From the IMG/VR virus record IMGVR_UViG_3300048903_000341, positions 1 to 21,801 of that record: a DNA stretch of 21,801 nucleotides. The stretch is one strand, 5' to 3'. The translations under genes were made by a program, and so were the position numbers. The stretch's first letter is position 1. Each line of letters starts with the position of its first letter. Origin of the DNA: a virus. Below, piece after piece: positions 12,250-16,274 of the stretch. The notes below the pieces were generated by a model. It was given only the letters and a program-made list of their open reading frames with translations. It was not told where the DNA came from and ran no database searches.

Positions 12250-12710
12250 CAGATTTCCTCCAGCGTCAGCGACCAGCCAACATCGGCCTCCCACTCGCTG
12301 CGCTCGATCTGGAGCTCGACGACGCGCATGGAAAGCTGCGGGCGGTAATAAGTGTAATCGCCCTCGACCCGCTCGCTGCCGGTCACCGGAGAGCGCCCCG
12401 GCGTGCCGCCCGCCGTCAGGTACGCAAGCTCGACATGGCAATCGACCAGCACCTCCATACCCACCCACACGCCATCGAGCGCGGGCGGCGCCTGGTCCGA
12501 GCCGGCAACCTCGAGCTGATACTTGCGCATCTGCGGCGCCGAGATGTCGACGAGCGTGCCGTTGACGGTGCGGCGCAGCTTGTCCGCGCCGCGGGCGGCA
12601 TCGATCGGCGACAACGTGCCGTTGAGGCCGCGGGCTGAATAGGGCGCAACGCCGGGCGCTGTGTCAGACGGGAAATGAATATCGAAGTCGGTATTCGAGG
12701 CTCCGATCAT
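12249..12710 (-). CDS. Hypothetical tail protein, 153 aa
   Basis: The ATG overlaps the stop of the tape-measure gene (ATGA). The product is 153 residues, soluble and beta-rich: FDIHFPSDTAPGVAPYSARG, then an NGTLVDISAPQMRKYQLEV segment, a VWVGMEVLVDCHVELAYLTA strand pair, and a C-terminal WEADVGWSLTLEEI. The repeated 'L.G.L..I......RK..LEV.G.D..PPA.....G..V.V.C' pattern suits a small minor-tail or tip protein that packs beside the hub. It lies directly between tape measure and hub, where siphoviruses encode distal tail and tip components. A distal-tail assignment is possible but I cannot confirm it from sequence. Confidence 0.65.
   Translation of the reverse strand: MIGASNTDFDIHFPSDTAPGVAPYSARGLNGTLSPIDAARGADKLRRTVNGTLVDISAPQMRKYQLEVAGSDQAPPALDGVWVGMEVLVDCHVELAYLTAGGTPGRSPVTGSERVEGDYTYYRPQLSMRVVELQIERSEWEADVGWSLTLEEI
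12257..12261 (-). promoter_or_regulatory. Shine-Dalgarno of the 44-aa CxxC gene
   Basis: On the minus strand a GGAGG sits seven bases before the ATG at 12249, within the last codons of the preceding gene. It is the best evidence that this very short ORF is expressed. Confidence 0.65.
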
Positions 12711-14461
12711 CGGCCGGGCGTGCCACCGTACCAGCTAGGCTTGATGCCGGTGGCGCGGATCTTGTGCCGGTGCGCCTCGATGACGAGCGCCGAGACGACA
12801 TCACCGCTGCCTGACAGCGCGAAGCTATGGCCGCCGAGATGTAGATGCACGGGCGTTCCACCGCCGGCGGTGACCAGCCCGCCATCGGCAAAGCGCCCAG
12901 GGTTGCGTGCCACCAGCGGCGCCGACAAGCCGCCGACCGCCGCGTTCATCGATGCGAGCAGCCCGGCGCCCCAATGCTGCACCGCTGCGGCGCGCATGAC
13001 AAATTCGCCGGCCGATAGCCGCGCCACGATGCTGTCGCTGGTGCCGCTGCCGGGGCCATGCACCATGCCGCCCGCAGCGAATCCAGGCACCGGCACCGCA
13101 GACAGGATGCTTCCGGCGGCGGCCGCGATGCCGGACAACTGTTGCCCCGCCCAGGAGGCAAGGTTGCTAAGGCCGTCCATCATCCCTTTGATCAGGTCGC
13201 CCCACCATTTACCGATGCCGTTGAGGCTCGTGATGGCGGCGTTCGAAAAGTCGGTCCAAAGCTGCGACCAGTTCGCCGCCACGAAAAGCTGGCTCATGTC
13301 GCCGATAAACGATGCCCACGCGCTCTGCATCGTCGGCATAAAAGAGTTGCTGAAGAAGGCGGAAAAGTCCGCGCTCCACTTCGGGAGCGTGTCGGTGATG
13401 AACCTGTTCTCGGCCTCGGTCACCGCCGCATCGAGCCCGATGTACCAGTTGGTGATCCCGGCGGTGAGTTCGAGGAACATCTGGTTGCGCGCGGCTATTG
13501 CCGCGGTGCGCCGCGTGGCGGCATCCAGCGCCGGGTCGGTGGCGCCGCGCGCCGAGGTTTCCAGTTCCGCTATCTGCTTATTAAGGTCGGCGAGCAGCTT
13601 CGGCGCGACGATCAGCGCCGCTCCCGCCGGCACCCCTGCAAACAAGACCTTGGATAGTTCATTCAGCTTTTGCGATGTCGGGTCCAGGGTTTTTGCAAAG
13701 TTCAAGAAACCTTGAAGCTGAAGCTGAAGCGCCTTTTTGCTCTCAAGCGAATTGTCCTTCATCCGCGACAGATCGACTTGGATGACGTCCAGCGGCTTGG
13801 ACAGATCCTGCACGATCGGCACGCCGCCCCGGAACACCTTCACGGTGTTGTTGACGGCGCCGCTGAGCGTCACAAAATGGCCCGCCGTCTCCTTGGCGTC
13901 CTCGCCCATCCCACGCAAGACCTTGACGCCGTCGAAGGTGCTTAGTGCCTTTGTTTCCGTCCGCACCTTCTGAAGTTGCGCGGTCATCCCGGCGATCATC
14001 CGCTCGCCGACATCGGTGCCCTGCCCCGCCGCGGCGGAAATTTCGCCGGCCGCCTGCACCACCAGCGGGCGTTGTCCCAACTCCCGCGCCTGCTGCTGAA
14101 TCTTCGTCAACCGCTCGGTCACGTCGCCAAGGCTGTTGGCGATACCGCTGACGACTTTCGCGAGGCCGACGCCGATGACGCCGCCGGCCACACCGCCCAA
14201 GGCCGAGCCCAACAGCCCGCCGATCGATTCGAGCCCGCGGCCCATGTCGCCGAAATTCTTGAGCAACTGCCCGGTCGCCCGGCGCATGCCGGTGGCTTCT
14301 CTGGTGAAGCTCCGCAGGCTTTGGGTGGCGGACTTCGAGCCTCGGTCGACCTGGGTGAAGGCTTGCTCGCCGGCCGAGCCCACTTCCTTGAAGGCGGCGA
14401 CGACCTCCTCCTTGCCGTCAACCGCGATCTGCTGCCGGATGCCGCCGCCGCCGCGCGCCAT
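12707..14461 (-). CDS. Phage tail tape measure protein (short), 584 aa
   Basis: Tape-measure proteins set tail length and pass through the tube during DNA injection. The N-terminal 80 residues are helical and charged (GGGIRQQIAVDGKEEVVAAF, then EVGSAGEQAFTQVDRGSKSA, LRSFTREATGMRRATGQLLK). A glycine/alanine-rich hydrophobic segment follows at about residues 79-112 (GGLLGSALGGVAGGVIGVGL). A long helical body then leads to a second hydrophobic region (SWAGQQLSGIAAAAGSILSA) and the characteristic C-terminal tape-measure signature FAAGGMVHGPGSGTSDSIVA followed by RLSAGEFVMRAAAV. At 584 residues it is short for a siphovirus, which predicts a short tail. It starts one base after the upstream TAG and ends in an ATGA junction. 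Confidence 0.88.
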   Translation of the reverse strand: MARGGGGIRQQIAVDGKEEVVAAFKEVGSAGEQAFTQVDRGSKSATQSLRSFTREATGMRRATGQLLKNFGDMGRGLESIGGLLGSALGGVAGGVIGVGLAKVVSGIANSLGDVTERLTKIQQQARELGQRPLVVQAAGEISAAAGQGTDVGERMIAGMTAQLQKVRTETKALSTFDGVKVLRGMGEDAKETAGHFVTLSGAVNNTVKVFRGGVPIVQDLSKPLDVIQVDLSRMKDNSLESKKALQLQLQGFLNFAKTLDPTSQKLNELSKVLFAGVPAGAALIVAPKLLADLNKQIAELETSARGATDPALDAATRRTAAIAARNQMFLELTAGITNWYIGLDAAVTEAENRFITDTLPKWSADFSAFFSNSFMPTMQSAWASFIGDMSQLFVAANWSQLWTDFSNAAITSLNGIGKWWGDLIKGMMDGLSNLASWAGQQLSGIAAAAGSILSAVPVPGFAAGGMVHGPGSGTSDSIVARLSAGEFVMRAAAVQHWGAGLLASMNAAVGGLSAPLVARNPGRFADGGLVTAGGGTPVHLHLGGHSFALSGSGDVVSALVIEAHRHKIRATGIKPSWYGGTPGR

Positions 14462-15100
14462 CTAAGCTGCCTCGCTCATGCGCTGACGGAAGAACCGCGG
14501 CAGCGCCTCGGCGGCCTCACGGTAGACGCGGTCGACATCGAGCCGGTCGGGAATAAGGGCCGCCCGGATACCGACAAAGATCGGCACGCTTTCGGTGTGC
14601 CGGCCCGCGCTCCTGCGGCGGGCGCCGGTCTTGAGCGACGCCACGCTGGCCCGGCCGGTGGGTTTGCGCGCGGCGTCGCCCGCCAGGAGCGGCGGCTTGC
14701 CCGGCCGGTTGATGCTGTGCAAGGGCCCGATCTGCTGCACATAGGCGCTCGGCGTGATGCGCTTCCTGGCGAGCCGCGGCGCGGTCGGCAGCGGCACCCA
14801 CAAGAGGTTCTTCTTTGGCCGGATCTGGCCGCCGCGCTCAAAGATGTTGGCGTAGCCGATGCGGATATATCCGCGCATCGTCGGCTCGAGGCTGTAGCCG
14901 ACCCGCGGCTTGGCGCGTGCAAAGAATGCCTTCTGCCAGCGGCGCGAAAGCCCGCCGCGGGCGATCTCGGCGCGGGCGTTCGTCTCGACCAGCTTTGCGG
15001 TATCTCGCATCGCCTTGGTCAGCGCGCGCGCCATCCGGTCCTGTGCCGTCTGCGCGCCCCGCTTCAACTGATCGAGGCCGCTCTGGTACCGGACGTTCAT
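14462..15100 (-). CDS. DUF6441-like minor structural protein, 212 aa
   Basis: The 212-residue product is basic and helical at its N-terminus (LDQLKRGAQTAQDRMARALT, then KAMRDTAKLVETNARAEI). A centre follows with SRRWQKAFFARAKPR, a YANIFERGGQIRPKKNLLWV block and a PLPTAPRLARKRITPSAYVQ stretch. The 'ANIFE.G..I..K....LW.PL' block is typical of DUF6441, found between tail chaperones and tape measures in alphaproteobacterial prophages. By position it is a minor tail component. Its ATG overlaps the stop of the upstream chaperone extension (ATGA) and its TAG directly abuts the tape-measure start. Confidence 0.75.
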   Translation of the reverse strand: MNVRYQSGLDQLKRGAQTAQDRMARALTKAMRDTAKLVETNARAEIARGGLSRRWQKAFFARAKPRVGYSLEPTMRGYIRIGYANIFERGGQIRPKKNLLWVPLPTAPRLARKRITPSAYVQQIGPLHSINRPGKPPLLAGDAARKPTGRASVASLKTGARRRSAGRHTESVPIFVGIRAALIPDRLDVDRVYREAAEALPRFFRQRMSEAA

Positions 15101-15276
15101 TCTTCGCGCACCGCTTTCGCCAAGGCTTTCGGGTCGCCGCGGGCGGCCAGCGCGTTGTCATGCAGCAGGAGCCGCCGCTCGGCCTGCCGCCGCTTGTTCG
15201 CGATAACAAGGAAATTGCGGATCTGCCGCGGCGTGTAGCGCCACACCTCGGCCGGCGGGTGTCCCCAGGCGATCAA
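15097..15276 (-). CDS. Tail assembly chaperone C-terminal (GT-type extension) frame
   Basis: This frame has no ATG. If translated alone it would start at a TTG at 15276 that overlaps the stop of the upstream chaperone gene (TTGA), giving 59 residues: IAWGHPPAEVWRYTPRQIRN, then FLVIANKRRQAERRLLLHDN and ALAARGDPKALAKAVREE. This is the compact helical tail-chaperone type that in lambda is gene T, made only as a -1 fusion (gpGT). The frame is open upstream to about 15430, through the overlap with the chaperone gene, and the codons just before the TTG (GLGYEIAEGIEQ) look protein-like. I favour expression by frameshift from the heptamer at 15363-15369; independent TTG initiation is the alternative. 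Stop overlaps the next ATG (ATGA). Confidence 0.65.
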   Translation of the reverse strand: MIAWGHPPAEVWRYTPRQIRNFLVIANKRRQAERRLLLHDNALAARGDPKALAKAVREE

Positions 15277-15707
15277 CTGCTCAATGCCTTCTGCGATCTC
15301 GTACCCGAGCCCTTGGTAGCGCGGCCGGCGCCGTTGGCGGCCGGCGCCGGTGAGGCGTCTAACAAAGGGCTGAGCACATCCCCCGGCAGCGACAGGCTGA
15401 CCACCTGATCGAACAGCGACTGCCGCTCGTCAAAGGTCAGCACCGTCAGAGACGCGCGCTCGATGTCGGCGTCGCCCGGATGGCCGGTGCCGGCGGCAAT
15501 GACGGCACTCTGCGCCGCCAGGAACCGCAGCCGGTCCCGCCCGTCGCTGCTCTCCTCGCCCAACATGATCTTGCGTAGCTCGGGGAAACGCCCGTAGAGC
15601 ATCGCCCAATCGATCGCGGGAATGCCGGCCACCTTTATCGCGACGCCGCGGATCTCAAGCTCGACGGCCGAGATTTCCGGCGGTGCGATGTCGAGCAGAG
15701 ACGGCAT
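15273..15707 (-). CDS. Tail assembly chaperone (G-type), 144 aa
   Basis: The gene lies between the tail tube and the tape measure, where siphoviruses encode chaperones that hold the tape measure during tail polymerisation. The 144-residue product opens MPSLLDIAPPEISAVELEIR, GVAIKVAGIPAIDWAMLYGR, then an FPELRKIMLGEE helix and FDERQSLFDQVVSLSLPGDV. The final 30 residues (from about residue 115, SPAPAANGAGRATKGSG) are disordered and Pro/Ala/Gly-rich. That is what is expected when the useful continuation lies in the -1 frame. A -1 shift at C_CCT_TTG would give a fusion of about 203 residues. The ATG is separated from the upstream TAA by no bases. Confidence 0.8.
   Translation of the reverse strand: MPSLLDIAPPEISAVELEIRGVAIKVAGIPAIDWAMLYGRFPELRKIMLGEESSDGRDRLRFLAAQSAVIAAGTGHPGDADIERASLTVLTFDERQSLFDQVVSLSLPGDVLSPLLDASPAPAANGAGRATKGSGTRSQKALSS
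15325..15369 (-). promoter_or_regulatory. Candidate -1 programmed frameshift site: C_CCT_TTG heptamer plus hairpin
   Basis: On the minus strand, 15369-15363 reads C CCT TTG in the zero frame of the chaperone gene (codons AGC CCT TTG), which is a canonical X XXY YYZ heptamer. After a 12-base spacer comes a perfect 8-bp inverted repeat, CCGGCGCC (15350-15343) and GGCGCCGG (15332-15325), with a ten-base loop. Reading on in the -1 frame is open to the stop at 15099-15097. Spacing is somewhat longer than the usual 5-9 bases, and whether this heptamer slips well is not known to me. Confidence 0.55.
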
Positions 15708-16274
15708 TTAGGCCGCCGCCATCATGACTCCCGGATCGACCTCGGCGGTGATATTCCAGATGGCGGTGCCGTATTTCATCGCGTCATCGACCAGCACCTC
15801 GGCCGTCACCTCAAGCTGCCCCCACTCCTCCGAGATCGGGCTGAAGGAAGCGCTCGGGGTAAAGCTGACATTGCCGAAGTCCAGCTGCACCTTGGCGCCG
15901 ATGTCGTTGGTGCCGACAAAGCGCAACATTCCGGTGATCTCGGCCAGCGAAAAAATGTCGACGGTATAGGTCACATCGGGCGGCGTACCGGTTCCGGCGA
16001 CGGCATCGCCCATCAGATAGAGCGCCAGGTTGTCGGCGGTCAGTTCCGACATGATCATGCGCAATGCGGCCGAGCGCTCGCGGATGACGCTGCGCGCCTT
16101 GGTGCGGATGCCGCTGCGGCTGGAAAAGTAGTCGAGCCGGTCGATGGTCATCGTAAACTCGAACTCAGGCACTTCGCCCAAATCCCGGTAGTCGGTTTCC
16201 CCGTCCTTTTTGAATTTGACGATGCCCTTGCCGACAAAGGTGTTGTCGATGTCGGCCGCATTGGTGATCGGCAT
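15708..16274 (-). CDS. Major tail tube protein, 188 aa
   Basis: The product forms the stacked rings of the tail tube. The 188 residues open MPITNAADIDNTFVGKGIVK, with strands EFEFTMTIDRLDYFSSRSGI, then the TKARSVIRERSAALRMIMSE segment and LTADNLALYLMG, typical of the beta-sandwich tube fold with a long loop and a helix. The C-terminal half has FVGTNDIGAKVQLDFGNVSF, PISEEWGQLEVTAEVLVDDA and ends PGVMMAAA. Length and order (after terminator, before chaperone) match siphovirus tail tubes. It follows the upstream terminator-like gene with a three-base gap and abuts the chaperone ATG. Confidence 0.85.
   Translation of the reverse strand: MPITNAADIDNTFVGKGIVKFKKDGETDYRDLGEVPEFEFTMTIDRLDYFSSRSGIRTKARSVIRERSAALRMIMSELTADNLALYLMGDAVAGTGTPPDVTYTVDIFSLAEITGMLRFVGTNDIGAKVQLDFGNVSFTPSASFSPISEEWGQLEVTAEVLVDDAMKYGTAIWNITAEVDPGVMMAAA

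Follow-up and report, generated by a model that had tools for sequence, protein, structure and literature searches.

Tail gene neighbourhood and overlapping reading frames

The window analyzed here, a 21,801-base virus record, has the features described below on its minus strand in the order major tail protein, G/GT, DUF6441 and tape measure. Specifically, a major tail protein with an Ig-like domain (15708..16274; phrog_807, E 4.3e-28) is located directly upstream of G, the zero-frame ORF of a putative tail assembly chaperone (15273..15707; 144 aa, ATG start). T, the -1-frame extension of G (15097..15363; 88 codons plus stop), is directly followed by a DUF6441 protein (14462..15100; PF20039, E 4.2e-16) that overlaps the T stop, and then by a 584-aa tape measure protein (12707..14461; several PHROG tape measure families, best E 4.4e-15). 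Portal and capsid genes are found farther upstream. Tail assembly chaperone genes usually lie in the slot flanked by the major tail protein gene and the tape measure gene, and the pair described here occupies this slot, as do pairs of the lambda G/GT type. The DUF6441 protein (14462-15100) separates the chaperone from the tape measure gene.

Reading of the minus strand confirmed the slippery heptamer C_CCT_TTG (15363..15369) that the initial annotation had placed in the zero frame of the chaperone ORF (15707-15273), within the context ...GTG CTC AGC CCT TTG TTA GAC.... An open -1 frame extends from 15429 to a stop at 15099-15097, and no ATG precedes its conserved domain, the alternative starts being only a TTG at 15276 and a later GTG. 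That is, an ORF without an ATG of its own overlaps G from downstream in the -1 frame, an arrangement characteristic of G/GT-type pairs; the 88 further open codons that had been claimed for this frame are present as well. A shift at the heptamer gives, as computed from the frames, a G-T fusion of 203 aa (115 zero-frame residues plus 88 from the -1 frame), in line with the size of roughly 203 residues proposed previously. The -1 extension opens with an Arg-rich linker, RRLTGAGRQRRRPR (window 15310-15363, minus strand), the Arg runs of which are retained in most relatives with the linker length differing among them.

In-frame X_XXY_YYZ heptamers occur seven times in the 5008 codons of the 13 other window genes, and thus ~0.07 such heptamers are expected in the 51-codon overlap. 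The window alone therefore offers only modest evidence against a chance occurrence, and it is the comparative data that decide the case for a frameshift. G contains another in-frame heptamer at codon 39 (TTTCCCC), which was rejected because it lacks conservation and falls outside the open stretch of the -1 frame.

Predicted identity of G and T

The Pre_tape_measure family (PF23789) matches 20 of the 25 G family members (best E 2.3e-17), and relatives of G match PHROG tail families as well; G of the window itself showed no PF23789 match at E 0.1, so its tie to the family runs only through its relatives. When the predicted structure of G (mean pLDDT 76) was searched with Foldseek, the top match was the HK97 tail assembly chaperone (PDB 2OB9), with a probability of 0.99 but an E-value of 0.063. 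For T, phrog_13355 matches 23 of the 26 members, and Phage_TAC_6 (PF09550) gives weak matches to eight of the 26 (best E 0.0034) and none to T of the window. The T model is confident (mean pLDDT 83) and helical, and a search of the PDB with this fold returned no structural match. Further, G and T of the window alone reached no Pfam family, and an NCBIfam search gave no match. The predicted fold of G appears to be HK97-chaperone-like, which agrees with the family matches and the gene order, and it is on the basis of these three lines (gene order, Pre_tape_measure matches, and predicted fold) that we favor a lambda G/GT-type identity for the pair.

Conservation of the heptamer and the overlap across relatives

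Relatives were obtained from searches of viral contigs and bacterial genomes and extend down to roughly 30% protein identity; counts refer to 37 intact non-redundant members, with the window included and duplicates removed. C_CCT_TTN occupies the same codon position in 35 of these 37. Its last base varies (C in 21 members, G in nine, A in four, and T in one), and either Leu or Phe is encoded accordingly, with CCCTTT itself remaining constant. CCT encodes the slip-site Pro in 29/31 aligned genes, whereas the remaining window genes use it for 24 of their 304 Pro codons. All relatives for which the sequence is complete retain T. Accordingly, an in-frame X_XXY_YYZ within the overlap is kept in relatives, as in G/GT-type pairs, and the alignment of homologues proposed in the initial annotation showed both heptamer and -1 frame to be conserved across more than 35 relatives.

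In the two exceptions (L029 and L052), C_CCA_AAA and C_CCA_AAC are located ~12 nt upstream; their CCCTTT position now reads as the codons CCC TTC, with G_GGC_CCC near the old place. These genomes (L029 is Mesorhizobium soli and represents the same prophage as L060) look like an apparent slip-site swap within the family. More distant relatives also keep the -1 overlap, with G_GGA_AAC in L067, A_AAA_AAG in L070 and L072, and A_AAA_AAC in L071. In L069 (distant, reverse strand), the overlap and the -1 relation are kept but there is no X_XXY_YYZ, only T_TTC at the matching place; a TTG is found shortly past the G stop codon of this genome. The initial annotation had counted loss of the heptamer from a retained overlap as evidence against a frameshift. 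What we observed was mostly the opposite, i.e., another X_XXY_YYZ replaces CCCTTT, and L069 is the sole distant exception where the objection applies. Since distant relatives keep the overlap with different heptamers, the frameshift appears to be older than the particular heptamer. Separately, an indel in L036 (2486-2900) breaks the G frame before the slip site, with CCCTTTC retained; this break may come either from an error in sequencing or from decay of the prophage.

Selection on the -1 frame and alternative origins of T

The positions that are free to change differ on the two sides of the heptamer. Among 15 close pairs, the 150 nt preceding the heptamer contained 115/89/313 substitutions at zero-frame positions 1/2/3, the overlap 59/110/58, and the stretch past the G stop 130/364/163; these figures, like the conservation figures below, are descriptive since related sequences are not independent, and the pattern was alike in most pairs. 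Position 2 of the zero frame coincides with the third (wobble) position in the -1 frame, and the move of the free position from 3 to 2 just past the heptamer argues for translation of, and selection on, the -1 frame from that point onward. In 15-nt bins, an ungapped and hence less exact analysis, the position-3 fraction dropped at the heptamer, from 0.52-0.65 over the four preceding bins to 0.35 over the two following ones. Similarly, synonymous conservation in G was ~1.0-1.2x the expectation ahead of the heptamer region, rising to 1.6-2.1x from that region onward. Judging from these substitution patterns, constraint is stronger on the -1 frame than on the zero frame from the heptamer onward. 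The family alignment of T includes invariant (A24, L30, T44, and P45) and near-invariant (G20, V40, and R58) residues and, together with the substitution phase, reveals protein-level selection on the -1-frame product, as in G/GT-type pairs.

Alternatively, T might be made separately, without any frameshift, by re-initiation or coupling at the TTG (15274..15276) that overlaps the G stop (TTGA, 15276-15273), a signal with a similar counterpart in L009. This TTG is the only candidate for an independent start near the beginning of T, and we judge its use very unlikely. It is absent in the close relatives L010 and L011, the latter being without any start codon in the stretch, and the candidate starts of other relatives are scattered rather than conserved. 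Starting at the TTG would also cut off most of the conserved first helix of T (GYEIAEGIEQ) and would leave the conservation of CCCTTTN unexplained. The -1 frame comes under selection from the heptamer onward, long before the TTG is reached.

Even less probable is that slippage of the RNA polymerase, not of the ribosome, yields the fusion at the heptamer region. The same proteins would result and a repetitive tract would suffice for it, as would be available in the long A runs of the relatives with A_AAA_AAG/C. However, transcriptional realignment has been tied to A runs of >7 and T runs of >8 (PMC3711429), and the runs of CCCTTT, at just three bases each, are too short for such tracts. Moreover, the conserved feature is a codon-phased X_XXY_YYZ for which differing sequences substitute for one another. 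Finally, a -1 frame that is merely a decayed remnant, or open by chance as long frames often are in GC-rich DNA (the window has 127 ORFs of at least 60 aa), is contradicted by the protein-level conservation of T and the family-wide codon-wobble pattern in the -1 frame, and we give this idea hardly any credence. The -1 programmed frameshift in the tail chaperone that the initial annotation had proposed is strongly supported: in more than 35 relatives, the heptamer and the overlap are conserved and the -1-frame protein is under selection.

Candidate stimulatory elements

Two elements that flank the heptamer could stimulate a ribosomal frameshift. The first is a GC-rich hairpin (15325..15350) that starts 12 nt after the heptamer and has an 8-bp stem (15350-15343 pairs with 15332-15325) with a 10-base loop; RNA folding lengthens the stem to 9 bp, and the 81-nt region has a z of -2.4 relative to shuffles. 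The hairpin described in the initial annotation is thus present in the window, but it lacks family-wide support: across 31 loci no conserved 3' stimulatory structure was found downstream of the heptamer (mean z -0.30, like elsewhere in the gene), and close relatives fold differently there. The Arg-rich linker encoded in the -1 frame alone would produce a GC-rich downstream region.

The second element is GGGGGA (15379..15384), a Shine-Dalgarno (SD)-like stretch that ends 9 nt upstream of the heptamer and pairs with the anti-SD at -8.6 kcal/mol. Relative to a synonymous-codon null, such pairing had a z of -4.2 in 29 loci and of -2.5 in 17 representatives, and a permuted anti-SD control scored alike (z -2.8, as strong as the -2.5 of the true anti-SD). 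SD pairing is therefore not specifically supported, and we treat the SD-like stretch only as a candidate stimulator. Based on these sequence data, the upstream G-rich stretch and the hairpin represent equally plausible candidates for a stimulator.

Comparison with known systems

The genes of the window matched no sequenced phage record, lambda included, at either the DNA or the protein level. The likeness to the lambda gpG/gpGT pair, whose role in tail assembly has been described previously (PMC5009743), is instead one of arrangement, i.e., the location between the major tail protein and the tape measure, a -1 shift near the end of G, and a fusion of G with T. The two systems differ in the slip site, which is C_CCU_UUG here, and in one extra gene (DUF6441) between T and the tape measure here. 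Gene order, family matches and the HK97-like model agree with the use of lambda G/GT as a precedent. The HK97 chaperone (2OB9), the best structural match of the G model, shares just 12% identity with it, at an E-value of 0.063 and a TM-score of 0.45-0.58. AH2 gp55/gp56, likened to the pair here through the PF23789 matches of family members, have been predicted to use a -1 shift as well, at AAAAAAG (PMC3483164); this predicted site differs from the one here, and G of the window is below the Pfam reporting limit.

One relative gave a weak match to Ruegeria phage V16. In this phage (vB_RpoS-V16, NC_052969.1; L063:2198-2889), the locus is annotated as a separate "tail protein" and a 70-aa "tail length tape measure protein". 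The 70-aa gene is in the -1 frame, which is open upstream of the annotated ATG, and G_GAA_AAG (A_AAG) is located near the expected slip place. The two-gene annotation is probably a missed G/GT frameshift, judging from this arrangement of frames.

With respect to the heptamer itself, all 64 X_XXZ_ZZN heptamers were assayed in E. coli reporters by Sharma et al. 2014 (PMC4066793). Their motif list places C_CC.U_UU.G, A and U among 18 motifs that shift at >0.10% without stimulators and are under-represented in genes, and adds C_CC.U_UU.C for high-level shifting (PMC4066793). According to this list, C_CCT_TTG was already shift-prone in E. coli assays, and the earlier suggestion that it could add a slippery site does not hold. 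The assays behind the listed C_CC.U_UU.G, shift-prone and under-represented, used E. coli reporters (PMC4066793), a setting that differs from the phage's own host. The literature we searched, which did not include the main survey by Xu et al. (2004, Mol Cell) of frameshifts in tail genes, contained no report of CCCTTTN in a tail chaperone.

Proposed model and implications

Taken together, the locus very probably encodes a tail assembly chaperone pair of the lambda G/GT type that is expressed by a -1 frameshift. We infer slippage itself and its efficiency as follows: most ribosomes would read the 144-aa G through to its stop at 15273, and some would slip back one base with the CCU and UUG codons in the P and A sites, the tRNAs re-pairing with CCC and UUU. 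These ribosomes would then read 88 more codons and produce the 203-aa G-T fusion. By analogy with the lambda pair, G may coat the tape measure protein, the T part may recruit the major tail protein, and the ratio of G to G-T may matter for tail assembly.

C_CCU_UUN represents a clade-wide natural example in GC-rich phages of a slip site that, in the literature searched, is otherwise found only in reporter assays, and the family also offers cases of one slip heptamer replaced by another. We tentatively suggest, with more doubt than confidence, a more specific scenario in which C_CCU_UUN is fixed in a clade that includes several prophages of Mesorhizobium and related Hyphomicrobiales, the upstream SD-like stretch aids slippage more than the 3' hairpin does, and one branch has swapped to C_CCA_AAN. 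If this scenario is true, the clade would be a natural series for studying the evolutionary replacement of slip sites. Gene callers would split G-T in two or drop T, and the fusion would represent a missing protein that is now annotated in this phage group.
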